Shown here: positions 6,001 through 58,320 of the stretch, in pieces
Numbering within the stretch: position 1 is the first letter of the stretch
Layout: the number at the start of each line of letters is the position of its first letter
Assembly (NCBI RefSeq): GCF_047663525.1
Contig: NC_092600.1
Coordinates: 4,894,001-4,958,000 of the forward strand
Direction of reading: 5' to 3'
Origin: Anas platyrhynchos
Lineage: Eukaryota > Chordata > Aves > Anseriformes > Anatidae
DNA: 64,000 bases
Position numbers and translations under genes: made by a program
The notes under the pieces: model-generated
Databases searched by the model: none
Seen by the model: only the letters and a program-made list of their open reading frames with translations
What the model was told of the DNA's origin: nothing

Positions 6001-7689
6001 TCTCCCTTGGTTGGCTGAACTAGGACTATACAAAACACTGTGCTTCAGAGGAGACATCAGCTTGTTCCTACCTCCACCTGCCATAAACCAAAAACCACAG
6101 GGGACAGAATTACATCGCTCCGTGGGGCTGCGGGAAGTCCAAGGGAAGTTACCCCAGGAGCAGAAACACTGGGTTTGTTCCTCCTCCTCTGCAAGGCACT
6201 TTGCTGTCCTAAGGTTTGCAGGTTCTACAGAACACCACAAAATGCAGTCATTGCACCTCATCAGCATGAGCTGGCAGACCTCCCCACCAGGGAAACCTTC
6301 TGGAGAGGGCCAAATGCCCCAGGAGACACCACTGGGACTTTCTCAGCATGTTCCCTAAGAAGCCCTGTCTCTCATGATGGGGTAGGTTGCAAGGCATAAC
6401 CACAAACCTGTGTACTCTCAGAGCATCTCTGACAATAAGCTAAGACCAGCAGGATATCACTGAGTGCCTCTGCTTTGTTCTGTGCCTCCAGAATCACCCA
6501 GGAGGACAACTCCAACAGACCTTCACAGCCAGGCACCTCTCCCTGGCTAGAACCTGGACTCATCCTTTCCTCTACCATTTCTTGCAATCCAGAAAGAGCA
6601 TGAGAATAACAAACGAACACATGCCCATCCTCACCCTTTACCCGGTCCTTCCCCATCCTACACAGGCAGTCCTCCACCTCCCAGCCCCACCAAAGTAAGC
6701 AGGACTTGAAGAATCCCGGGAAGCAGAGGCAAGGCACATCGCATCGTTCCCGCATAGCCATGGCCAGGCAGGAGGTGCCACCGGCTGTGGTTATCCTGCA
6801 GCAGGAGCCCGACACGGGGCAGGCTCACTGGAACTGACCTTCCGTGCTGCATGGGCTCAGGAGCAGCAATTAACTTCCAGTCTCATTTCCCTCTGACCTA
6901 AGTCCAGAACGACTGCCATTAAGTAATTACCGACATGTTGTCACTCTGGATTGTTGTCTCAGACAAAGAGCCCGCGGAGCTGCTAAAACAAAAACAATCT
7001 TTTGAAGCATGAAGTACCTGCCCAGGAAATCTCAGCCGTGGAACACAAGTGAAACTGCAGCAAAGGACCACGAGGACCATCCAGCCCAAGGAATGCAATC
7101 CAGACACAAACAGCTCCTCCTCCACGCTCCTCTTTTCCCTCTCCTCGGTGTTTTATGCTGTGCCAGAGCACCGCTGAGGGGCTGGCGTGGGTCCGCACAG
7201 AGGCCACCCAAACCCCCCGAGCTATTTGGTGTCACCCAGGGACACCCCGGGTGTTTTGGCCGGCACGGACAGGGGCTGTGCAGCTGCTCCCATGCCCTGT
7301 TAATGAGGTACTACGGACACGCTCATGCTGCAAGCGCATCTTTGACATAACGTAGCATGACAATTTCTTCAGAGCCCCAGAAATGCAGAGCATACAAATA
7401 AACCTGAGCGCTGAAACCACCTCATTGTTCATAGCAATATGCACACTGCACCTGTTACGGCCAAGGGCACTGCCCGTGCCTCGGAGCTGATTATTTCAGC
7501 CTCCACCAAACCTGTCTGTCTCGGAGGGCTGTTAAATTCCAGGAGCAAACAAAACGCTGCAAAATTATTTCACGAGAAGAGATCACGAGCGGATATACAG
7601 AGAGGCATCTTTAGATCCAAGGGAAAGAAAACAATCCACAAACTGACATTTTCCCCCGAGCTTCTCTTACAGCAGAAGACTCCGTTTAA
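6001..7689. other. Gene-free flank of the CpG island
   Basis: Many short open frames overlap on both strands but none has exon-like boundaries. CpG density rises gradually from about 7150 toward the island. No repeat recognised. Confidence 0.55.
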
Positions 7690-7880
7690 ATTAAATTCGG
7701 CTGCAAGAAAAGAACTCGGAGACCGACACCGGCAAAGTCCGAGCCCGAAGCCGGGATCTGGGAGCCCAGCCAGCCCCGGGCTGGGGGCAGAAGGACCGGG
7801 GGTCGCCCCCGGAGCCCCCAGCCCCAAAACAACCGGGGAGAGGGGGGGAGCAGGGGGCAGAGCCGGGTGGGGTTTTACCT

Positions 7881-7919
7881 GGAGGGGGAAAGGAGGAGGA
7901 AGAGGAGGAGGAGGAGGAG
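7881..7919 (+). repeat. Purine tract (GGA/GAG)n in CpG island
   Basis: An unbroken 39-base run of G and A made mostly of GGA/GAG triplets, followed by a further G-rich stretch. Such mirror-like purine tracts can form triplex (H-DNA) or G-quadruplex structures. It lies just downstream of the proposed donor on the minus strand, so it would be early intron 1. Confidence 0.8.
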
Positions 7920-7956
7920 TGCGGGGAGGGACCCCGGGCTGGGGGCACTCACCCAG

Positions 7957-8043
7957 CTACGCGCTGCCCCCGCTGCCGTCCATGGGGGCGGCGGGGGGAC
8001 GGGAGCCCGCTGCGGGCCGGAGCCGCCCCGCGATCCGCCGCAT
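7957..8043 (-). CDS. Possible upstream open reading frame in the 5' UTR, 28 aa
   Basis: An ATG at 8043-8041 opens a frame of 28 codons ending in TAG at 7959-7957. The peptide is rich in Arg, Pro, Ala and Gly, starting MRRIAGRLRPAAG. A second in-frame ATG at 7983-7981 would give the short product MDGSGGSA, with CCCCC before it and G after it. The stop lies four bases before the putative exon end. It resembles a translational-control upstream frame rather than a functional protein, and it exists only if the minus-strand exon is real. Confidence 0.3.
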   Translation of the reverse strand: MRRIAGRLRPAAGSRPPAAPMDGSGGSA

Positions 8044-8055
8044 CTGCCCGCCGCC

Positions 8056-8114
8056 GAGGAGGAGGAGAAGGAGGAGAAGCAGGAGACGGAGGAGGAGGAG
8101 GAGGAGGAGGAAGA
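8056..8114 (+). repeat. Purine tract (GAG/GGA)n in putative first exon
   Basis: Nearly pure purine, interrupted by C at 8080 and 8087, with eight consecutive GGA units near 8091-8111. The minus strand would carry it as a CCT tract in the 5' UTR. The plus-strand reading gives poly-Glu and the minus-strand reading poly-Ser or poly-Leu, which explains the long but spurious open frames here. Confidence 0.8.
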
Positions 8115-8300
8115 GCGGAGCTCGCCGCGCCGCCCCGGAGCCCCAGAGCGCAGCCCGGCCGCAGAGCGCCGCCTGCCCGCAGCGCCCGGGATGCGCCCGG
8201 CGGAGGGGAGGGGGCTCGGGAGGGGGCAGGTGCAGCCGGGCTGGGGTCCCGCAGAGCCGTCAGAGCAAGGGTGAAGCTGCAGGGAGGTGTTTATCTGCTT

Positions 8301-11300
8301 GTTTCTGAAAGCACGTGTCCCTAGGAAGCAAAACGACCGCGCCACGGGTTGAAAGGGAGGATGCGACATCGCAGTTTTCCAAGGCAGAGGTCACCCTAAA
8401 TGCTGGGGAAGGCTTTTGAAGCGCAGCCCCACCTTAGGATGGCCACAGAGGATGTCCCTGCAGGATGACAGGAGCCTCATTTGCTTCTTGTTCTACCTGT
8501 GCTCTCCGTGGGCCAGGTAAGCTGTTCTGCTTCTTCCCAGCTCCATTTCCCTTTGGAGTGATTGCCAGTGAGGACACGCTAACACAAGCCAGGTGCGCAG
8601 GCGTTTCGTGCTTGGATGTGGGGAGAATGGATCAAGCCCACAAAACCATCGCGCAGATGACGAGCAGCCAACTCAAGGTTACGATTTCCAGTCACTACAG
8701 GCCCCGGAGCGGACTGCTTTTCTGCGATGACTCAAAGCTGGAACATGGCCGGACCGTGCCTGCTGACACTCGGGCACTGTGAGGAGCATAAAGACCTCGG
8801 ATAAGCAGGATTAGGGAACTCTCCTAGCAGGCTGGAAGTGGGCACCCCACATCCAAGAGCCCACGTCCTGCGTGCTCTGCTTGCAGAGCCCAGCATCTTC
8901 CATCAGCCCGGTTTTGTTCGTTTAAGTGAAGGCAATCGACTACAGTCCTTCTGAGCACAGACCCCATTACAGCCCAAGCCCACAATGCTGTCACTTTCCC
9001 ACTTCATGTTTACCAGCACCACCAACGTGACACCTGCGGATTAAGAACAGTTTTGTGCCAATGCACAGGGTAGAAGGGGTAGCTCTGCCCAGAGACTGGG
9101 GCTGCATCAATTTTGTGCCATTAATTCTGACCTCAAGCCCATGCCTGCCCACACGCGGGTTTTCCCTCTGGAACAAATTGCCATCCAGATGGGCAAACTC
9201 AGCTCCAAGGGAGCAGCTCTGCAGGCCCAGCTTAAAGACAGCTAGAGACAAGTCTGAATTGCCCACACAGGCACCAGCCCTCTGCACAAGGACCTCTGCC
9301 TTTTCTTCAGCAGGAACAGCAAAAACAGCTCTTGTTTTTGCAACTCTGCTCTGCAGATGGGGGCTGTTGCACAAGGCATGCGTGGAATGGTTTGCCCTTG
9401 TTTTGCCCTTGACTTGGCACCTTTGGGTTTTTGCTCGCCCTCTAATACCTCCATGGCTGCTCAGAAGTCAGAGAAGCTTACATGATCACAGATATGTAAG
9501 AGATGTTTTGTCTTTCAGCCACTATTTTTCATATTCCTGCTTTCTGTTGAGGATCCCCAGAGAGCAAAGCCACAGGGAAGGCACAACGTCAGAGGCAGCT
9601 ATGCGTATTCCCTGAGCACAGATGTGACTGCAGCGGATAGCTAAGGAGGCAGGGAGGGATGAAGAAGCTCAGCCATGGTAGAATCTTTTCCTTAGAAGGA
9701 TATAAATACAGAAGAGGTGAGGGAAACACAAAATCAACACAACCTGGAACAAGCATGGCTTGAACCAGAAGGGCAGGCAGCCTGGCAGACTGACTCCATG
9801 ATCTTTCACTTAAATTCTTTTCTTTAAACTTTAACTTTTTGATTTTAAAAACCCATTATAACTACAAGCTCTCAGTCAGGCTTCCTAATCTCCATCTAAA
9901 ACCAACACATAAATAGCTTCAAAGTTATTACATGGAAGACATAGTTTAGTCTTTCTTACAGGACAGGCACTGGAAAACATTCACCCTGAACTGGGAATTC
10001 TTCCAGTTTATGCACTCTTGAGTGAGCATACAAGTAGACGAGCATGCTTACCTTATTGACAACATCCTTGTTTTTCTTATGCCTCTTGGACCTTTCAGCA
10101 GGAGCAGGACTGTCTTCTCTTCCTCACAGTTCTGCAGATCAGTAGCTCTCACCTGTCTCTCATTGACTCATTTTCTACTATGTGGTGTTAAGCTGTTAAG
10201 CGTATGACTTCTAAGCTTTGTCAAAAAACAGAAGGAATAGTGAATTTGTTCCACTCTGTTACATCTCCCATCCTCCAGCCATTACTAAAAGTAGGTGGTT
10301 CAGAGCTGGCTTCAACTTGTTCCTTAGATATTCCAGGGTAGTCATCTTCAGGCTTTGCCTGTTTCACTGTACCTTTTGCACCTGTGCCCCTCTGCAATTT
10401 CCATGTTGTTTTCTGAAGCTCTTCTAAAATTAAAAAAACAGGGAAGCTCACTGTAGAAGTCAGCCACTAACAGGTCAGTCACTGATTTGGGTCTTTATTT
10501 CATTCCATTTCAAGAATATATGTTTTCTTAAAAAAACAAGATAACGTAACTGTTTGATCCTGAACAAATAAGAGCAATGCCTTTTTTCCCCTGGTATAAG
10601 GCACCTGTCCAACATTTTATTAACTTTGCTAATTGCATTAAGCATCATGAAGTGCTGAACAGTCCTCAACTGCTAATTCCCAAATCACTATAGTTTAGTT
10701 GACTGTTAAATGAGAAAAATTCATAGTAGGAAAAAAAAAGAAAAGACATTTTAGATCCACAGTGGCCGAGCTGATTGTACAGTTCTGAATTCTGATCGGC
10801 TTCTAGCAGCAATCATACTTTATGGACCACTGGAAGATGATGCTAGGACTCAAATGCTATGACATGCTTCTGAGCTGTATGGGTGCAAGTGAGAATGACT
10901 GACAGATCTTACGTGTTCAGACATTTATACAAACAAGAAACATTCGTTTTCCATATGTGGATGTTTTATGCAGATTTCTGGGCAGATAATTTGTACCTGC
11001 TCTTTCATTTTGTTACCTGTAGTATTACATGTGAACATAATAATAACCTGAATTTACATACACAAATTACTGGAAGGTCTGGATCTGGCACACTGGGGAG
11101 TAGTTTCTGGCTGGAAACATTAGAGACGTGATAACTACTTAGACAACTATATGAAATGAAATAAGCACCTGTCAAGGGAAAATGCGTTGTTATGAAAACT
11201 GGAATTGGTATGTTCTCAAATAAAAATGTAATCTATGAAAAAGAGTTGATCAGAAATTCTCTCCTGCCACTCTCTTGCATTACTGCTTTTCTTGTTTCTT

Positions 11301-17500: not shown

Positions 17501-17939
17501 TTTAAAGGCAAAGTGTGCCAAAGGAGGAAAACAAACCACTCTGAATGGTGGGCAGGCAAACTCATTTTCCAAGTACATTATTCTGCGATTAAATGATAAA
17601 TCTGGGCATTACGTTATTTATTCCTGATAACATTCAGCCCTTTTGTCTACGTTATTTAAAAAGTCCACAGCTATTTGGCAAACAGGACAGAAGGAGAAGT
17701 GTCAGCTGGTCGGGGCTCCTGCTCGGAAGATAAATAGACGAGCAGACAAAGAGTCAAGGAAAGGCTCGGGCGTTTCAGCTGCGTGGCCACGAGCCACTTC
17801 GTTGTAGCATATGGCGTACACTAACGGGTTTATTTTCCATGAGGAGGATGTATAAACTGTCTGCAACTGCTCTTCACACTTGTCACTCTAAGTCAGACGA
17901 TTTTTCTGAGGCATCCTGCACAAGCAGCCCCTCGGTTGA
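14534..17939. other. Gene-free stretch
   Basis: Moderately GC-rich between about 16150 and 17050, where overlapping open frames occur on both strands without exon signals. A near-perfect hairpin CTTTTTCT / AGAAAAAG with a 2-base spacer lies at 16512-16529. No repeat or RNA gene recognised. Confidence 0.5.
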
Positions 17940-18740
17940 AGTCGAACAAAGAATTTGTGGACGCCTTGCAGGTGGGCTGCGCTCGGTCCGCAGAGGGAGC
18001 GCGGTGGAGCGCACGTGGAGCGTTATCAGAGGAGCTGACAAAGGCGGACGGACACGATAATGAAATAAGAGCAATTAAACAAGGGGGGGCAGGGCCGGAG
18101 GGAGGCACTGCTGGGAAGTGGAGTTAAATTCGGGTCAGGGAGGAGAAGCAGCACGTGGCAGCACGGCCCCGCAGCTGCCCCGGCCACATGGGCAGCCCTG
18201 GGGCTCTTCCCCCCAAGCCCGGCAGCACCCGCGGGCGCCAGGGCCGGCACCTGCTGCCATCCCGGTGCTGCAGCCTGCCCCGAGGCCCGTTAGACACCGT
18301 GATTAATACGCCGAGACCAAAGTGACTGGCAAAGATAATTACACAGCGAGTCAATTGGCTGGCAAAGTTAATTATGCAGGGAGTCAAATGAGTGGCAAAC
18401 CAAGTGACTGAGGCGGAATAAAGAAACATTTGGCAGTGACAAATGGCAAAACAAGTTACTCCGACAGGGGGTCAAGCGGGCTGGACACGAGACGTGTTTT
18501 CCAGCAGCAGATGCTGGCAGGATGTCAGCGAACGGCGGCCGTCGCTGCCGGCGCTGCTCCCAGGCGAGCAGCAGCAGCGCTGGCGGCACCGCTCAGACCC
18601 CGCTGGGACTCACACCCCGATCGCCCTCGGCCACTCCATCACCCCGTAACCTCGAGCCACTCGACGTCCCGCTGCCTCAGGACTGCTGCAGATGAAGCAT
18701 TTCGTGTTCCCTTCGGCTGTCCGTAAAGCGGCCGTACGGA
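17940..18740. promoter_or_regulatory. Second CpG-rich block
   Basis: CpG is plentiful in 17960-18060 and especially 18520-18680, where about twenty CpGs fall in 150 bases, in contrast to its flanks. No convincing splice donor or start context was found, so it may be an orphan CpG island acting as an enhancer or an alternative promoter. It encloses the 33-bp array at 18321-18452. Confidence 0.55.
18321..18452 (+). repeat. Short 33-bp periodic array with TGGCAAA and TAATTA boxes
   Basis: TGGCAAA starts at 18327, 18360 and 18393, exactly 33 bases apart. TAATTA starts at 18336 and 18369, and AGTCAA at 18349 and 18382, with the same period. A TGGCAGT at 18431 and a further TGGCAAA at 18444 continue the theme out of phase. 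The repeat is diverged (about 75-80 percent between the first two units), so it is old or under selection on the shared boxes. TGGCA is an NFI half-site and TAATTA a homeodomain core. Because 33 is divisible by three, the minus strand also shows an 11-residue peptide periodicity in one frame, probably incidental. Confidence 0.7.
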
Positions 18741-21700
18741 GCTGGGAGGGGAGATAAGAAACAGCCCTGAAGCAGCCGGGGTGCACCTCGTGTGCTGCTC
18801 GGTGCCACCATCGGCAATAAGCCCTGCTGCTTGCTCAGGAGCCGAAAGGAAAGTTACCCTTCTTCTTCTGCCATCAGCAGTCCAAGGGGGAAAAGTGCAT
18901 GGGCGCAGAGGCCAAAATAGTCACAGACCTAAAGGGACCTGCAGGAGGCCAAGGAGAGGCAGTGATGGCAGCTCTTTGCTCTTCACAACATGTGGGCAAA
19001 CTCCAAAGCGCTGAGATCCTCGAGTGGTCGATTCTGTTCCTTGCCTGCTTTTACACTGGACGCCCCACACGAACATCACAACTACGGACCACAAAAACCT
19101 ACGAAATCCCTAGAAATTAAAGAAATTAAATTTGAATGATTGAAAAAAAGAACGTTTAATCCCGCTATCTGCAAGAATTCGGGGGTTGTTATTATTTCCT
19201 TAATTCTACCAGTCAGTTGGCACTGTTGGACAATGCAGGGTTCCCCAAATCTATAGGAAAAGCGCAGGCATCTATAATGCAAATTTGCACACAATTTCTC
19301 TAGTAAAAGAATATAAATTAAATGTAAACTTTTCCAAATTTCTTACAAAGATAGATTTTTTCCAAACTATACCTAGCGTTTGCCACATCGACTCTCTTCT
19401 TTACATGCAACATTCTCATATCTCACTCTTGCATTTCATTTGAAAGCAAACAAAGTTCTTTTGGGGTGATTTACACTACTATGGCCATGAGATAAAATTA
19501 AAGGAGGAAAGCAAAACAAGGAACATCGACCCCAAAACACCAGACAGTTTAAAATAAAGAAAAACAAATAACAATAGCAAAGAAACAAAGTGGTACATGG
19601 AAAATAAATCTTTTCTAGGTCATGCTTAAATTTGCATTAATGGCTTTCTTGTCAAATTATCTCAGGGGAGCTTCAGATTAGCATGCAAAAGCAGCATGAT
19701 ACAAACTGGAGCAGTAATACTTGTTTTATTTACCAGACCATTTTCTCCAAAGGCACTAAATACGAGTATTTTGAGGGATCTGACTTTCATCTTTTGTAAA
19801 GGAAGTGCAGTTGGGAAGAGCTCACCATAATTAGCAGCTAGTCAAATAGTACATAATTCCTCCCTGTATTTACCCAGCAGTGTGTACTTTAATCATGGCA
19901 CACATTAAGCTGACCCCAACCATCTCCTTCTACAGACAGCTCAGGAGCTCATTTGTTCAGTTCCTGGATCAGCTCTTAGGAAAACAAATCTTACCAAGCA
20001 CGCTTAGAAGTAAACACAGGGCATTCCCAAATCTGCATAGGAAAACATGTTTAATAAACAAGATAGTGCAGAAAAATAAATAAATAAATAAAATATTTCA
20101 TCTGCCACTCTGATGTTTAAGCAAAGTGAGGCCACCTAAGGCTTGTTGCTGATGGTTTGCAGGGGCAGGGTGGGGTTTTGGCAGGATTTGGGAATTATCA
20201 GAGACCCCGGCTGAGTCCCAGCGTACGGTGAGCGAGCGACCGGCTACACCGCTGTGCCGGCAGCACGTGGGGTGCTCGCTGCAGTGGGATTTGGATCCAC
20301 GCACTCTATCGGCATGAAACGAGACCTCTGACCCTCAGCTTTTCTTCTTATCACGCAGCAGTGCAGAAAGCAGGTGTTATCTCGAGGGCATTCGACGTCT
20401 CAAGGGGTGCTGGCGGGCAGAACCTGGAGGCTGTGTTTTACACTGCTGCCTCTCTGCTGGCGGGCCGTGGTACAACCCGGCAATTCAGGTTTTATTTAGC
20501 AAATCTGTTAAGGTTTGGTAGATAACCAACCCGCTGCTCACACAAAGGGAGCCAGGAGATAACAAATGTACTTCCGCACCTGAATCTAGGGGCACGTGAG
20601 CACACAGAAAGGCTGCCTAACCGGCAAAGCATTCATGTCCAGGCATCTGTGCTGTTACGGCAGTGACCTGTGCCAGGAAGCCTTTGGTCGGATGCTAAAA
20701 TCTCACCCCTGCCCCAGCAATACACCAAACACAGGAACACCGCCACTGGCATCGTTTCAGGCTGAGAAAATTGCAAAAAAAACTTTGAATTAAGTCATCT
20801 TTAATACTAGCTGAGTGCTGCAAGTTCTTGGACTTCTTGCAAGTCCTCTGAAGTTTAAAGCTGGTCAAGAGTTTTTTGGAGTGGGAGTAGATAACCCAGC
20901 CCAGAGCCTGCTATGGGAAAGAGCCTCGACAGGGCAAGAGAACAGACAGAGCACCACGGCTGGCAGAAGTTATTTACACCCATTTTATGGAGACACCAAT
21001 TGTTACAGAGGGCACGTGGAAAAGTCATGCCCAAAGAAAATTTAGGGCAGCCAGGTCGAGACAGAAGAAAGTGCCTAACCACTTGTTTTTAAAGAATCAG
21101 CACCTCCAGCGAGCACAGGCACCTGTTTTCATCCTGGTATTCAAAAGCTGGTTTTCAGAAAGGTGAGGCCCATATATCGACGCGGTTCGATCAGCAGTTG
21201 TACGCTGCTGTGCCACGGCTGCCTTCATTATCTGCTGCCCATCTGTACTGGTGGTACGCTTGGCTCTTGTACAGTGATGATCATGTCTGATTTAACATGC
21301 CAGGTTACATTAACAGCTCGGAAACCCAAACAGCCACACAAGTCCTGGAAAAACGGTTGGGCTGCTTTGCTGTTGTTACACATCATATTCCCCTCCTCGT
21401 TGTCACTAATTCCAGCCCCAGAAGCACTTTTGGGGGGAACCACCAGCACCCAACACCGCAGCCCGCAGAGCTCTACCAGCCCACCAGCAGCTCCAAAACG
21501 TGCGGAGCTTGTAAGGTTTCTGGGCATCCCTCCTCCTCCCACTTAGTCACACCCGTGACTTCTCTGTACAAGGAATTAGGAACGGGAAAAAAATTAGCTT
21601 TTCCTCTGGCTTCCAATTTAATAAGTGGCTTTAAAGTTCAGCGAATTCAAAGAATGTAACCTTTGGGGTTCTCATGAAGAACAATGGAAATGGTAAGGAA

Positions 21701-30616: not shown

Positions 30617-33600
30617 TTGCTCTTGAAGGAATATTTCCTCCATCTTTTCTATTAGACAAAAAGGAGAGCTTCATAGGAAATCCGTCTTTGGTTGCAGAAA
30701 AAAAAAAAAATCCAGAAACATTTCTGGACAAAACCTACAGCCTTTTTATGAAATTTAAGCCCCACACCATTTATTCGATTCAAAATGGCATTTTGGAGAG
30801 ATGAGGGCTTCCAAGCAAGCAGGAGATGGTGACCATTCAGACATGCAGAAGCTCCGTCAGGAGCCTGGGAAGTCAGGTCGTTTTCCACAAAACCACTCAG
30901 ATTTGACAAGTGGAAAATTCCTGTTCAAGAAGCTCCCTCCTAGTTTTGCAGACGAGCTCCAACTATAAATTATTCAGGGTAGAGATGAGCTCTGATTACC
31001 CAAACGTATCAATATTAGAAACAGAGGATACCTGCTCTTGGTTGGTACCTCCATGCACTTAATAATAGCGTGTGCCTAACGAGGGGCAGCTTCTTAATGT
31101 GAGTTATTGAATTAGAAGGAAACTTTTGACAACAGCTGCTTTCAAATGTCTCATTTACACTGTAAAAGCTGCTGCTTCCTGTAATAATTGGGAGGGAGAG
31201 GAGGGAAACCACACGTAAGCTGATCCGTGCCCCCAGGAGCTGTGCACGCAGCTCCTGTCAGATCAAAGAGGAGCCTCGCATGGAGTCTGAGGGGAGAACT
31301 TGGCCCCTGGCACTTTACACAGAAATACGCTGGAGCTTGCCTTGTATTTAGGCAGCACCCGGCCCGTATCTTTGATGTGTGATAACAGCGAGGCAGGTAG
31401 AGCATAAGGGGAGGCCTAACAAGTTATAGCACAAGTGGGAAACGCCGTTACAAGTCCAGGATGAACGAAATAACGTTTGTGCTTTCCTGGGAGAGCCCAG
31501 CCATACCTCAGCCATGGAGCGATCCAGACAAAGGGAAAAAAGCTCGAGACCCAGCAATCTGCAGACAGTGAATAAGCTTGGAGGTAAGGTGAGTGGCTGG
31601 AGAACTCAGGAGGTGGTTGAGCTGCAGAAAAAACCCACAGAGCGTGCACACAGGGACGGCCTTCAGAACGGCAGCCCCTGGGTCCCAGCCGGAGGGACAA
31701 CATGCAGACGTGTGTAGCTCCATCACTGAGCAGATTTCGTTGTACATTCAGCATCCCTGCATCACATTACACTGCCTCCCTAATGAAAGGGATGCGGTAA
31801 GCCACTTACATTTTTGAAGGCAATTTCTTTTTGAGATGGGCACAGAAAGCACGCGGGCTGAGCCAAACCATCACCACGGCTGCAGATCACATCTCAGCTT
31901 CACAGGCTGCCAGCCGTCCTGTGCAGCACATCTTCCCTCCTTATTTTCCTACATCTTTGTCCTACTCAGGAATAAGAAGAGAGCACACAATTCCCACTAC
32001 CAACGTTGCAGGATAGCCCTGCAATAATTTCTATTAAGCTTTGAGGAAGGGAACCTTTCTGTCCTGTTGCATGCACTAGAAGCCCAGGGGACCTCCATGT
32101 GCTATGTTTGTACGTTTTCCACTCACAAGCTATGGCCCAGAGATTCTCAGAAACAAAATCACTGCAGAAATGAAGTCGAGGTTCCTGCTCTCCGTTTCGT
32201 ATTTATTGTTCTCTAAGGAAGAAATACCCTGGCTGGGTTTTTAAAGCGAGGCTTAAATCAGCACAGAAAGGTTGCGCAGGGAAGTCGTGTTTGTGCATGC
32301 TGCGCATGATTGAATGGCAAAAATAAGCTACTACGTAGAAAGCCCAATGTCATAAGACACCTAACAGAAAGCCAAGAAAAAAAAAACAACTTGGCCTGAT
32401 TTGACTGGTTTTGCTTCTGCAGGATGCCTTCAGCAACCTTTTGTTCATCTTTGACTTTACAAAGAAACAAATGCAAAAAGACTCCAAGATGTTCCTTTGA
32501 AACTTTTTTTTTTTCTGTAAAGGGAAGGAGAGAATTTAAAATCCCTCAAAAAAATTAGGCTGCTTGTGAAGATTCTTATCTCCTAAATAAATCATTTGCT
32601 GCTACTCTTAAAGATGTGACTGATTCAAGAGTCAGAAGGAACATGATGGCTGAATGCACTTGTTAACAGCAACACATCATCTGTCTTCAGCGAGTGACCA
32701 AATGTTGGTTTAACCTTCTTAATCCTACAAACACCACGAGCCGAGCTGATGATTTTAGTGATCAGTGTCACCCCTAGGAGAGGAGGGAGGCAGAAGACTT
32801 GACAAAGTGAGTGGTAAATAAGGGCACCAGATCGGCTCTGGGCTCTGGCTCAGATACTGAGAACCTCCTGGTACAACTGAAATTGTCACTTTCAGCTGAT
32901 GGCAATATTTTTATATATTTTTTTAATCATGACATTGAGACAAGCTTCAGTTTCAGGCCCAGAGTCCTTCTAGAGACTGCTTCTACAAGACTATCCCACA
33001 TAAGCATAAATTTAATTATATCCTTGGCCAATTAGCTTTTTAAACTTCACTTATAAACCACAGAAGAAACTTGTTTGAAAGGAAAAGAATTCTTTAAAAA
33101 AACAACGTCTGTCAGGCAGTTTTAACAAACTTCACACAAGTGCATGCCAACACTTTTCTGAGCCATATGGGGATTTCTGTTGTCAGTTAAAAATTGCGAA
33201 TACCCCATGCACGAACTACTGAATAAAGCTGTTTTTATTATAGAAGTAAACAGAGAAATTTTGGACGATTCTTTGCATTTCATCATTATTACCAACTTCA
33301 GGCACTTTCACACACATTAAAGTTTGTGCTGCTCAAAAAACCATCAAGCTTTATGAGTAGAAACAGACATCGCATTTAATATGAGCTTTTCAGCTAGAAC
33401 AGCTGTAGCTGTGCGGAGCTGGCGCTCTCCAAGCCAAGAGCCATCTTTTTGTTCTGTGATCACACAGCGCCTCACGCCAGACGTTTATCCTCAAACCAGT
33501 AACTCTTCTGATAGAGGTTTACCCTGTAGGATCGATCTGGCATAGGACTGAACATCCCAGCTTCCACTGAAGTTCTTGTGACTCTTGTTTCTTAGAAAAG

Positions 33601-43456: not shown

Positions 43457-43510
43457 CATATATATATAATGTGTGTGTGTATTTATACACACACACACAC
43501 ACACACACAT
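43457..43510 (+). repeat. Compound microsatellite (TA)n(TG)n(CA)n forming a hairpin
   Basis: A (TA) run is followed by TG repeats (43470-43480), then ATTTAT, then CA repeats (43487-43509). The TG and CA halves are complementary: GTGTGTGTGTAT (43471-43482) pairs with ATACACACACAC (43485-43496) across a 2-base spacer. Confidence 0.9.
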
Positions 43511-46500: not shown

Positions 46501-47205
46501 TTTGGCTCCTGTGGAGAATTAAGCCTAAAAGGAGGTGTAGCCTACTTCAGTCAATACTTCTATATCACTGCTTGTCTTTCTAAAGATATCCTGCTCTTCA
46601 CACAGAAAATACTCCAGCTCAGGTGGAGTGAGCCATTTCTGTGGTTATGCGTGAGTAATTGTAATACTTGTAGGTGCCAACCAAAGGGCAATAAAACTGG
46701 TTTAACTAGCATACCAAGGGGCCCGTGCAAGCGATGCCAGTTTTGGTTTAGTTCTGAATTTGCGATTGTCATCTCCATCACTACTTACTAAGAGATATGT
46801 ATGCTTTTAATCTAGTTAGCTATCAATTTCCAATTCAGGTTCAGAATAGGTAAAATATAGGGCTTATTTCCGTATTACCTTGTGCAGTTCAAGACCCCAT
46901 TTTGGAAAGACCACAAATTACAGCCATTTTTTCCTTTCACATTTACCTGTGCCTTCACATCTGCATTGCACTGTTAAAAGGTTAAGGTCTAAGGCAAAGA
47001 TTGAAGTTTGTCTGTGATAAACAGTGAGGAGCTGACCTCATATATTGGAATCGCTTTCTCCAGGAGCTAAAGAGCATCTTCCCTATCCCAGCTGCATATT
47101 TCCTCAGGTTTTTGCTGTTTCAGCTAACAGTTATTTCCAGAACAGATCTGGTCCATTTTGATTCCAGTGCCCTCTGAACAAATTGGTTGAAAGATGGAAA
47201 GAAAG
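43511..47205. other. Gene-free stretch
   Basis: From about 43700 to 45500 the sequence is GC-moderate but CpG-poor, giving overlapping open frames on both strands; no exon boundaries. Octamer-like ATTTGCAAAT and ATTTGCAT occur near 43876 and 43891. No repeat family recognised. Confidence 0.45.
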
Positions 47206-47224
47206 AAAAAAAAAAAAAAAAAAA
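47206..47224 (+). repeat. Poly(A) homopolymer, 19 bases
   Basis: Preceded by GAAAGAAAG; no retrocopy features seen nearby. Confidence 0.85.
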
Positions 47225-47289
47225 GGGAGAGATCTATCCACAACAGAAGTAGCTGCCTCAAAGAACAAAATAGGTACACCTCCAGATTT

Positions 47290-47325
47290 GAGACTAGAGA
47301 TCTTAAAGAGACTAGAGGCCTTAAA
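47290..47325 (+). repeat. 18-bp tandem duplication
   Basis: GAGACTAGAGATCTTAAA is followed immediately by GAGACTAGAGGCCTTAAA; the two copies differ only in the central AT versus GC, and both keep a 6-base palindrome (AGATCT, AGGCCT). Confidence 0.85.
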
Positions 47326-48050
47326 TGAATCCAGAAGAGAACATATCAGAAGCATCTGAGGGAGAGGGAGAATGTATGTCTAACTCTAGTTAACTGGGTC
47401 TAGTTCGGTCCCCAAACATCCACTTACTCAAAAACAGCCCTGCATTCAGAGGTTCAGTTTTCATTTTGGATCCTTACAGCAAGTGAGAAACTGAAACAAT
47501 GAAAGACATGAGTAGAACATGTTAGATTTGCTTCTGTTCTTCTTTATAGCAATTTTGGTCTAGCTTCATTAACTTCAGCAAAAGCTGGATAATGTTCAGA
47601 AACCCCAGTTCAGACTGGGGCAATACTTAACCATGTACTTTACCTCACAGGAGCTGATACAGCTGAAGCAGACTTCCAACTGAATACATCCTTAGCTGCA
47701 ATTGCAAGGTGATAGCTTTATAGAAATCAATGGGAAGGTAATTCATCCCTCATCTCAGACATCTGTAGAAGTGGCACCTTTTTTGCCCAGGGCAATATTA
47801 TGGCTTCTCTCAATTTTATCTATCCATGCGCGGTCTGAGTTAGGTTTGTCACATTTCTAGCTGTTTAGAACGTCACTTCTCACACTTAAATAGCCACAAA
47901 GCAAGACAATGTTTGTAATAATATAGAACAGTCACTTACCCCTGAGCAAGTAATTTATCTTGGACCAGAGCGCCAAAGTAATAACTGGGATTAAAGATAA
48001 AGCAGTCAAGACAAAAAAAAGGTAAATCAATCACTACATTAGGATATTGG
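47326..48050. other. Gene-free stretch, nothing recognised
   Basis: No coding, RNA or repeat signal that I can support. Confidence 0.5.
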
Positions 48051-48655
48051 AAGAATCATTTGCATGTACTCAGAAAGTATGATACTTTCTATTAAGCCCA
48101 GCTGTAGCAGAATCCCAAATTCATAAATATTCATCAAATAACCTTTTAGCAAAACTCAGTGACTACGATGGTGGCCAGCTACAGAATTCAATCTAATTGA
48201 AAACCTGAGAAGTAATGAAATGATTGCATGTCTGTCTCTTCATTAAATCAGTGTGCAAATTTGCATAGATTAATTTGTGTCAAATTAATAGCTCCACTCT
48301 TGGCTTTGAGCCAAGAGAACTTATGATCAATCTATAGTTTTAATTCCATTCTGCACTACCAAAGTGTCGGGTGGTTTTTGCTTTTTTAGAGACAAAAAAA
48401 TTAGAGCTGAATATGATTTTCACCACTTCTGTCATTTCCCCCTATTTCTTATGTTATGATGATTAATTATAATAAAATGTGCACATGACTAAAAAGCAAA
48501 AATGAAACACACTCTCAGCCACGGAGAAACAAGATCTGGTTTGATTCTCTGCAAGTAAAGACGCATTGGAATGCCTGAATCCTCAGCTACATTAAATTCA
48601 ACAGAGGGTGGTGTATGTCTGGGGCTGAACAGGCAACTTACTTGCCTGTTTTCTG
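48051..48655. promoter_or_regulatory. Cluster of perfect short-spacer inverted repeats with octamer and NFI sites
   Basis: Four perfect 9-bp inverted repeats with spacers of 1-5 bases: AGAAAGTAT/ATACTTTCT (48072-48090), ATTAATTTG/CAAATTAAT (48269-48289), CTCTTGGCT/AGCCAAGAG (48297-48317) and AACAGGCAA/TTGCCTGTT (48628-48650). GCAAATTTGC at 48255-48264 is a further palindrome. The third contains TTGGC(N5)GCCAA (48300-48314), the full nuclear factor I palindrome. POU octamers ATTTGCAT lie at 48058-48065 and 48259-48266. The symmetry is certain; enhancer identity is inferred from known factor sites. Confidence 0.5.
48300..48314. promoter_or_regulatory. Full NFI palindromic site
   Basis: TTGGC, five bases, GCCAA: an exact match to the dimeric nuclear factor I consensus. 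It lies about 34 bases right of a perfect octamer, a pairing also known from some developmental enhancers. Confidence 0.5.
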
Positions 48656-50909
48656 AGCAGTTCCCAAGACTGGGTATTTTAGTAGAATTTTGCCTGTCAT
48701 TCGCTGAGTCCCCGGCCCACCATGCTCTACCTTTCCATAGGATGCAGAATTTGCAGTACCTACATGTATGTGGCTGTTTGATCCACATGATGTGCAAAAT
48801 ATATTTAAACATTTAATGTTTGTTATGTTGAGATCTGTCTGGAAAATAATTATTTCAGCCTTCAATTATTTGAAGTTAGTGACAGGGACAGACAGTGCAC
48901 TCATTTACATTTTCAGCTTGCCTTTTTTTTGTTGTTGTTTTTTTAATACAATCAGGCTTTAATTCAGGACATTTGATTAATCAAACTCAGACCATCTGCT
49001 GCAGTCCTGTCTCCTGCTGATCTGCATTGCCTGCAGTGACATGCTTCAGGGCTGCAGTCTCACACTGTCTCTTCCTCTGTCAGCTGTTTTATTGCTATTC
49101 TGCTCCTTTCACCCAACATACAGTGACTGAGCTTTGTTTACTATGATGACCACTTACGATAGTCAGTGCTAGACAATTACTATCAAAATACAGGACATGT
49201 GCAAAAGCCAGTTACACAACAAACATACCAGAATGAAAACAGTATGAACCCAAGATTCCCTGTTAACCAGAAGAAACTCTTCACTAAGACAATTCAAATA
49301 CTTCCAGTAGCAACAAGCAATTTTAGCTTCCTCATAGTTAAAACTTCCTAGCATTAATATGGATTCTGCATTCGTGTGATTTTTTCCTTTCCTGGTCAGA
49401 GATAGAAATTCAGAGTGAGGAATCAGACAGCATGAATTTACACAGCTTAGAGATTTAAAGGCACAAGAGGCAAGCAAGGTACATAATTTCCAAATGGGAT
49501 TTCAGTTTAAATGGAAGGGGAAAATATTGCAGGCTTCAAATCAGAAGTCTCAAAAAAATACATCCAGAGAGCTTCTACCCCACCAGCCATCAGTCACTGC
49601 CGTGGATAGGGCACAGCTCTGCACATCCCTGGGTTTGGGCCAGCTCTTGCTGGTTCCTGTGGAGCTCCATAAGGGGCTGAACACACTGTGGTCTCTGCAG
49701 AAATAGGACAATAGCGATCTGAATGCCTTCGATAACAAGCATCCTCTAGCTACCAAGGCTAATGCAATAAAGAGAATTTCATTTTGGCATAAGAATGACA
49801 TGATGCATTGGCAAGATTTCAATTATATGAGGCCAAAGAGGCAGCTTAAAAGAGTTAGGCCTTTATTAATCAGGTAACAGTGATGCTGCATTTCAGAACA
49901 GGCTTAACACCTGCTAATTTCATTTCAGGGCTGCAGAAGCTGAGTTAGCTAACTGAGCCTGTTGCAGAACAGGCACATTCAGAGCAGCAAAGGTATTTCT
50001 TGTCTTCATGAAATGTTCTTCTCTCTTCAATACGGACACTAAGCAGGGAGTAAGGAAAAAGGATGGTACCCTTCCTCCTTGAAGCCTGCCAATTCCCTGT
50101 GCAGCTAGAGCTGTGGGGGAAGGACAATAAGAAGCATCACAGATGCTTGCAGAATGCATTGTTGCAGTAGCTAATGTTTATTAAAAGCTAAGGTTTCAGT
50201 AACTTCAGAGGACTTGAGGCAGATTCTACAACAAAAATACTGGTGTAGGCCAAATTATCTTCTTGCTTTCATTCTGTTTGGAGACAATTTTCACCCCAAG
50301 GCTAACAATGAGAAACTTGAGTCAGATTTTTATAATGGAAGTCATTTTGCATCCTCAACTACAACGTTTGCTATCATCAGAAACTATAACGCTAAAACTG
50401 TGTGATGGTTTAATAGTTGATAATACAGCATACACCTCATTTTCCATGACAAAAAGGTATAGTAATAACAAGGAGCACTGCAAATCAACCATAATATACT
50501 GAAACAGGACTTATTTCACCAGGACTGGCTCTTACTACAAACGCTTATATGGTTCATTTATACGGTACAAAAGACAATTGTGAAATGACTGGAAACGTAA
50601 TATGGAGGAATGTAATTGGTCTTGCTGGAGATTGATAGATGGTCATTTATGAAAAGTAGCCATCAAAGGTTGGATTGTCTTCTCAGTTTCACCAGAGTAA
50701 AGCAGCACAGTTATGAGATCAAGGAAAACCCCAGATTTTTACTGTCCAAAGGACTCAGGCTGATCTGAAGCAAGTACTTCAACAGAGAACTTTTTTTTTT
50801 TTTGAAACTGCCACAGTCCTTGCTGGCCAGATGGAATTTAAACATTGTCGTATCTAACTTAAGTCCAAAATGTTCCCAAAGTAATAGACTGATGAAATGT
50901 CTGTGTTAT
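48656..50909. other. Gene-free stretch; possible 3' UTR at its right end
   Basis: If the terminal exon at 50910-51000 is real, its minus-strand 3' UTR would occupy the right part of this stretch; AATAAA on the minus strand lies near 50176-50181 and another near 49862. A 13-base T-run lies at 50791-50803. Otherwise nothing recognised. Confidence 0.4.
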
Positions 50910-56461: not shown

Positions 56462-58320
56462 CTTTTGGGAGATTGAGATATTCACGTTTGGGAGGAGGAC
56501 CCGAGACTGCAGTGCAGCATTTATGGCTCGCCCTGATTTGTATTTTAGGTGCTTCTGTTTTGTTTCCCTAAACGTGTTTCTCTGTACCAAGCATATAAAT
56601 CTGTGTATGTACCTATGAGCACAGGAGTATAATGAATTTGAAGTGTCTGAAAATAAACATGGCTCTTCTGCTCACCGCAGCTCTGATGTTTCCAAGAGGA
56701 TTAAATAAATAACAGCATATTGCTTAATCAAAGTAAGACACAGAATTGGTTTAGGGATGTAAGGGTGTTAATTTTGTTTGGGAAAATGCCCAAAGAGAGT
56801 GCCATTACAGATAAATAACCGGTCCTTGTCTCTCTAGCCGGCTGTTTGAGAAATGTTAAAAGGTTTCAGGTCAGGTTTTTTTCCCTGCCTGCAGTCTGTG
56901 TGCTGGGCAGTGCCCGCCAGCAGCAGCGATGCTATCAGAGCATCTCCAGCCCCCCGGAGATGTGGTTACGCAGACGCCCGTTTCAGTCCTAGGGGTCGAT
57001 GCCCCTCTCTGCTGTGCTGAAGCCCACGTTTTCAGAGCACCAGGTTTAATCCGTGTGGATCAAGGCCATGGGGCAGCCCCATAGGTGTTGGGAGGGCACA
57101 GATGCTGCATGAGCGAGCAGACCCAAGGGGTCAGCACGGTGGGGATGTCTCTGGCTGGCTTTGCTGCTGGAGAAAACGCTTGAGTCGCCGCACCCAGAGT
57201 TTAGTTCTGATGGGAAAAAGGATCTGTTTTAATGATGTATTTGATATGAAAGGGCACAGTGCTCCAGTGCGTAGCTTGCAATAAGCGGAAAGCAGATATG
57301 ACAGCTGAGATTTCACAGTGTTAGAAATGGGCCTTTCAGACTCTAAGAAAAGAAAAACAAACACTGAAGGACAAATTTATGGCTGGAATAATAGACTGGT
57401 GGGTTTGGGGGGACATGCTTCAAACAAGCTTCCCTTGACAGCTTCTATATTTGTCTCAGGCTGCCTGCTTTCCATGCAGCATCCCCACCCCCACAAGCCC
57501 CTCAGCTCTAGGTAGAGCTGGAGGTTTAACTAATTCCTCAAAGCACAACCAAAGTGCCTTGGGAATTATCACCATGAGCGTGTGTACACCGTGCTGCAGA
57601 GCAGGAGACAACCCAGTGCAGCTGGGGCTGGCGGAGGTGTGAGGGAGGCTTGCTGCAGGCTCGGGGTGCTCTCCGTTTGGGAACAGAACTAAAACATGCA
57701 GGAAAGCAGCCACAAAGTCTTTTTTGGTCACTGACAAAAAAATAAAAAGACAGCTTGTATGTGGGGAGGGATCATGGAAATGGGAAACCATTTTCAGAAT
57801 CCAAGCTGGGTGTATCAGAACACTGTTATCTATATTTATACGTAGGGGGGAGAGGAAGACACAGAATATATGGCTGGCACTCTTCTCTGAAGCTCTCCAC
57901 TGCCACTGTTCCCCCCAGATAGCACTGGCATATGCTGCGGTGCCCTGCTTTAACATTAACCCCAGAAATTAACTGATGACAGCACTTTCCAGAGCACTCA
58001 ATAGTCTTTATTCCTTGGTTATGCTTCTTTCTTCACTTTATCCCATTGAGGCCTGGGGACACTGGTAGTGCTGAAAGTCACTTGACCTTCTCTGTCTTAA
58101 AAGTGATCTGTCTACATCTGGACACTCTCTTTTTTACACATTGGCCACTTTTACTTGTATAACTGATTTCATAAATACACCAGAATTTGTACAAATACGG
58201 GTTTCTTTCTCTAAGCTTTGGGTTTCTTCTCAATTGATTTTCTCTCCTGGGAATTGTAAATCTGCTTTAACTGGCCAACCCCCCACTTTCAGGTTCCTGG
58301 CTTTGCAGACACATCTCTTG
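56462..58320. other. Gene-free stretch
   Basis: The largest open frame (57456-57956, minus, 166 aa) has no recognisable feature and overlaps plus-strand frames of similar quality. CpG slightly raised near 56900-57000. No exon called. Confidence 0.5.

Follow-up and report, generated by a model that had tools for sequence, protein, structure and literature searches.

A 605-base block (positions 48051-48655) of the 64-kb stretch of DNA analyzed here (the window) holds four of the eight perfect 9-bp inverted repeats with short spacers that a full count finds in the window, and it combines them with two POU octamers, an exact dimeric NFI site, and a palindrome built of two overlapping octamer-like sites. 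This anatomy and the statistical oddity of the repeat cluster constitute the demonstrated part of our analysis.

We tentatively interpret the block as an AT-rich distal cis-regulatory element, an enhancer or a silencer, that would be served by dimeric factors and would lie in apparently noncoding, vertebrate-like DNA. In kind, it would most likely be an ordinary gene-control element. In the mechanism we propose, POU/homeodomain proteins and an NFI dimer would bind the element, chiefly at 48050-48320, and the repeats at 48254, 48269, and 48297 would be symmetric because dimers bind them; the two outer repeats (48072 and 48628) probably arose by coincidence or may be sites for other factors. From the letters of the DNA, we infer the regulatory function, the identities of the proteins, and the existence of a target gene. 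A chance origin of the block is nearly as likely.

Sequence anatomy of the block

The initial annotation had described four perfect 9-bp inverted repeats with spacers of 1, 3, 3, and 5 bases, an exact dimeric NFI site inside one of them, and two POU octamers in the same block. We recovered every one of these features in its place, with the repeats spanning 48072-48650 (Table 1). A 10-bp palindrome had also been reported; one is indeed present, whereas the palindrome that covers seven of the eight bases of the second octamer extends over 12 bp. The most packed part of the block is 48254-48317, where the double-octamer palindrome, the shortened PORE-like repeat ATTTG-N3-CAAAT, and the NFI dimer site are brought together within 64 bases.

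Table 1. Features of the block at 48051-48655, in window coordinates.
Feature	Position	Strand	Sequence or remark
POU octamer	48058-48065	+	ATTTGCAT
Perfect 9-bp inverted repeat, spacer 1	48072-48090		AGAAAGTAT-G-ATACTTTCT
Variant-MORE near-match	48123-48134	+	ATAAATATTCAT, one mismatch from ATGAATATTCAT
6-bp inverted repeat, spacer 3	48187-48201		TTCAATCTAATTGAA
12-bp palindrome	48254-48265		TGCAAATTTGCA, two overlapping octamer-like sites
POU octamer	48259-48266	+	ATTTGCAT
Perfect 9-bp inverted repeat, spacer 3	48269-48289		ATTAATTTG-TGT-CAAATTAAT, includes ATTTG-N3-CAAAT at 48273-48285
Perfect 9-bp inverted repeat, spacer 3	48297-48317		CTCTTGGCT-TTG-AGCCAAGAG, includes the NFI dimer site
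NFI dimer site TTGGCN5GCCAA, exact	48300-48314		TTGGCTTTGAGCCAA
6-bp inverted repeat, spacer 6	48382-48399		poly-T/poly-A arms
10-bp palindrome	48477-48486		ATGTGCACAT, ordinary frequency class
Perfect 9-bp inverted repeat, spacer 5	48628-48650		AACAGGCAA-CTTAC-TTGCCTGTT

In composition, the block is at the AT-rich end: a GC content as low as its own is found in 2.05% of 605-base stretches, and its ATTA/TAAT density is equalled in 2.4% of them. The ATTA content is also equalled in 2.3% of shuffles of the block, and AT-richness therefore accounts for part of the pattern.

Statistical assessment of the repeat cluster

We counted 9-bp repeats with perfect arms and spacers of 0 to 5 bases. Dinucleotide shuffles of the window, done in 1-kb pieces, gave a mean of 2.0 such repeats per 64 kb, in agreement with the one or two that the initial annotation had expected, and placed more than two within 600 bases in none of 400 runs. 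When the block itself was shuffled in the same dinucleotide manner, at least three repeats at arm 9 were reached in 0/20,000 shuffles, the maximum being two. Under Markov models of 47001-50000, the probability of four repeats in the block was 1.4e-8 (order 2) or 2.8e-8 (order 3), and third-order simulations of the whole window (n = 60) yielded a mean of 2.25 repeats and a maximum of two per 600 bases. These values, which apply to features selected after the fact, argue against chance as seen from the window. Measured against its own window, the cluster is a genuine outlier, yet the whole genome could yield one by chance.

Chance assembly in AT-rich neutral DNA, singled out by a wide scan for oddities, is the alternative that survives best. 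In a simulated scan of 64 kb that assumed uniform placing, the cluster arose in 0/400,000 runs at a rate of two repeats per window, with a frequency of 4.75e-5 at four per window, which is the repeat rate outside the block, and with a frequency of 4.9e-4 at eight. Scaled to 16,400 windows, on a genome size that we take to be 1.05 Gb, these rates correspond to 0, 0.8, and 8 clusters expected genome-wide. Because about one cluster per bird-sized genome is expected at the rate of four, a genome-wide chance origin is possible.

The excess also hinges on the 9-bp threshold. Arm cut-offs of 7, 8, and 9 all return the same four repeats in the block at spacers of 0 to 5, so that arms of 7 to 8 bp are not enriched there, and four repeats with arms of at least 7 were reached in 16/20,000 shuffles of the block. 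The 10-bp palindromes stand at their expected level, with 57 in the window versus 62 expected at equal base frequencies. When spacers of up to 20 bases were allowed, another location in the window was denser (nine versus four 9-bp repeats per 600 bases); the block is thus exceptional for short spacers only. Among inverted repeats with short spacers, the longest in the window lies at 43470-43497 and consists of 13-bp TG/CA-repeat arms around an AT-rich centre.

A second, independent criterion, given in passages of PMC8036336 for cruciform-formable inverted repeats (CFIR), requires an arm of at least 6, a spacer of at most 6, and a length of at least 15. By this measure, the block contains six CFIR in 605 bases, the highest number among the 605-base stretches of the window taken in 50-base steps. 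At lengths of 400, 605, 720, and 1000 bases, the stretch reported as the maximum of the window begins inside the block (ties are possible, and the 720- and 1000-base maxima extend beyond the block), which speaks against chance. In favor of chance, at least six CFIR per 605 bases were reached in 21 of 300 windows shuffled locally by dinucleotides; six were reached in 3/5,000 shuffles of the block. The whole window holds 102 CFIR versus a shuffle mean of 76 (sd 9), and 102 was reached in 0/300 shuffles, so that shuffles underrate the natural background. The CFIR criterion is loose, and the cluster is borderline under it.

POU and NFI dimer sites

The dimeric consensus of NFI is TTGGC(N5)GCCAA. 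The exact sequence match to it in the block sits within a repeat whose symmetry reaches 3 bp past either end of the consensus and 1 bp inward. This symmetry beyond the consensus counts against a regulatory element, as do the two repeats of the four for which no matching dimer site is known to us. The dimer-based element suggested in the initial annotation is plausible for the other two, namely the NFI repeat and the ATTTG-N3-CAAAT repeat by the double octamer; we know of no familiar dimer site to which the repeats at 48072 and 48628 correspond.

Taken over the whole window, octamers are not unusually numerous, and near-matches to the NFI dimer and to ATTTG-N3-CAAAT show no excess. Eight octamers are present, two of them in the block, and this total was reached in 9 of 100 shuffles. 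With at most one mismatch, the NFI dimer occurs twice (3.9 expected) and ATTTG-N3-CAAAT once (5.2 expected), and with at most two mismatches, the variant MORE occurs five times (shuffle mean 3.15), the match at 48123 being the best. The block contains five motif types (two octamers, NFI dimer, ATTTG-N3-CAAAT, near-variant-MORE, and double-octamer palindrome), none of which turned up in as many as 1% of 5,000 shuffles of the block, and at least two of them occurred together in 0/5,000, a figure that is descriptive and not a test because the motifs were picked after seeing the block. The other regulatory motifs that we scanned for were not enriched in the block, with counts of zero for AACAAT, zero for TGTTTA, three for CANNTG (mean 3.2), one for TAATTA, and two for TTGGC.

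Coding, repeat-family, and relative searches

None of the 40 best coding scores from a codon-usage scan in six frames falls on a segment in the block, and a 107-aa minus-strand ORF at 48489-48812, which overlaps its 3′ part, gave no Pfam match. Two GC-rich stretches (7.7-8.3 and 18.1-18.7 kb) account for all 13 of the best codon-usage segments, which may reflect composition, not exons; exons outside these two stretches could be missed by the scan. Across 20 stop-free stretches submitted to Pfam (15 of the 40 coding-score segments and 5 of the 81 ORFs), no match rose above the curated cut-off, and we put two sub-threshold matches, TP2 (E 0.043) and DUF3078 (E 0.03), down to chance.

About 40 kb from the block, a CpG-rich island extends over 7001-9000 (67% GC, CpG observed/expected 0.75 at 8001-8500). 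This island is likely a promoter. By eye, a donor-like GTGAGT was noted on the minus strand at 7947-7952, where it would suit a 5′ noncoding exon. A second CpG-rich stretch covers 17501-19500 and includes, at 18318-18399, a 33-bp unit present 2.5 times with AT-rich homeodomain-like motifs.

The segment 19277-19292 is an exact inverted match over 16 bases, ATGCAAATTTGCACAC, to 48251-48266, and inside it lies a second exact copy of the 12-bp double-octamer palindrome (19278-19289). The shared match may be chance, and the window holds 19 repeated 15-mers of non-simple sequence, falling into about 10 groups, which makes a 16-base self-match unremarkable. A repeat family was rejected as an origin of the block: self-comparison returned this match and two weak ones, at 57945-57971 and 30679-30706 (E 0.16-0.46). 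No tandem array was found in the block and no tRNA under bacterial settings. Three CR1-tail strings and one Alu-like string were likewise without a match.

Four exact patterns from the block had no match in a viral contig collection, nor did one in a genome contig collection, and a blastn search with 48000-48700 as the query returned nothing from phages or plasmids; vertebrate DNA is not expected in these collections, so the negatives are uninformative on conservation. Our literature search found no paper carrying any of six strings from the block, none matching every term for palindromes in conserved noncoding elements, and none matching every term for a chicken NFI/octamer element.

Other origins of the symmetry

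Short template-switch events in replication could have made or perfected the inverted repeats while leaving them functionless. Passages of PMC8794818 describe how a single event can yield a perfect stem, and such a process would be consistent both with the surplus of short inverted repeats across the window, a number that none of the 300 shuffles reached, and with symmetry in excess of what NFI requires. It leaves four independent events within 580 bases, as well as the motif matches, unaccounted for, and we regard it as unlikely.

Cruciform-prone DNA, the alternative offered in the initial annotation, is possible in principle. The usual minimum cruciform stem is 6 bp according to part of a review (PMC9180970), and a portion of PMC12562434 cites yeast hairpins from arms down to 7 nt; in an excerpt of PMC13155455, arms below 10 bp were left out of a genome survey on the grounds that they form the structure less readily. 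As single-stranded DNA, the four 9-bp repeats fold into hairpins of -4.5 to -8.4 kcal/mol, values that are uninformative on extrusion from the duplex. Extrusion is thermodynamically unfavorable in the account found in sections of another review (PMC7999016).

A functional cluster of cruciform-forming repeats in an enhancer, by analogy with mouse Pou5f1, would nonetheless have a precedent in repeat number, the six CFIR in 605 bases of the block standing beside six in about 400 bases of the Pou5f1 distal enhancer (PMC8036336, in part). Against it stand the looseness of a criterion that admits 102 CFIR in 64 kb, the unfavorable energetics of extrusion, and the mildness of the Pou5f1 phenotype: in the portion of PMC8036336 concerned, homozygous cells whose CFIR had been converted into mirror repeats still had about 75% of the transcript. 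By our own reasoning, repeat edits also alter protein sites inside the repeats. We consider a cluster of this kind in the block quite unlikely. Equally conditional is a broader proposal in which the symmetry itself would be functional, the packed dyads either offering dimers a composite platform or forming a supercoil-sensitive cruciform cluster, an arrangement that would amount to a Pou5f1-like enhancer at another gene; we judge it improbable.

A transcribed RNA with adjacent hairpins at 48254-48317 would be in line with the folding of 48240-48340 (z -2.89 on the plus and -2.54 on the minus strand versus shuffles) and of 48610-48670 (z -2.57). It is nevertheless scarcely credible, given that DNA palindromes fold on both strands by construction, that 48051-48110 shows no folding advantage over shuffles (z 0.24), and that Rfam gave no match for the whole window at gathering scores or for 47900-48800 at E up to 1.

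Comparison with known systems

The regulatory reading that we tentatively prefer invites comparison, beyond the NFI dimer site, with the POU dimer elements and the Pou5f1 repeat cluster. Passages of PMC4576985 give the PORE as ATTTGAAATGCAAAT, the MORE as ATGCATATGCAT, and the variant MORE as ATGAATATTCAT. The PORE is absent from the block with up to three mismatches allowed, the canonical MORE is absent with up to two, and no exact variant MORE is present. The repeat at 48269 nevertheless has the same inverted ATTTG...CAAAT half-sites as the PORE in that description, with a spacing of 3 rather than 5, and the block resembles the MORE through its one near-match to the variant form, at one mismatch. 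In the same passages, shortening the PORE spacer weakens Oct4 dimerization, genome-wide data from ES cells lend scant support to recruitment of Oct4 by PORE or MORE, and MOREs are used by class III POU factors in neural stem cells.

The Pou5f1 repeat cluster raised the question of whether inverted-repeat symmetry in enhancers acts through dimeric factors or through DNA structure. If the palindromes of the block are conserved, the block would offer a compact natural test of the two; if they are not, it would be a statistical curiosity.

The block and the Pou5f1 cluster, as the latter is presented in portions of PMC8036336, are alike in holding six repeats under one criterion within a few hundred bases. 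They differ in that the Pou5f1 cluster belongs to an established enhancer, has its repeats some 2 kb away from the start site, and has been edited in ES cells, whereas the block is a candidate element, and in that four of the six repeats of the block have 9-bp arms. With the edited Pou5f1 enhancer as a precedent, even the bolder reading of the block as a cruciform enhancer would not be categorically new.
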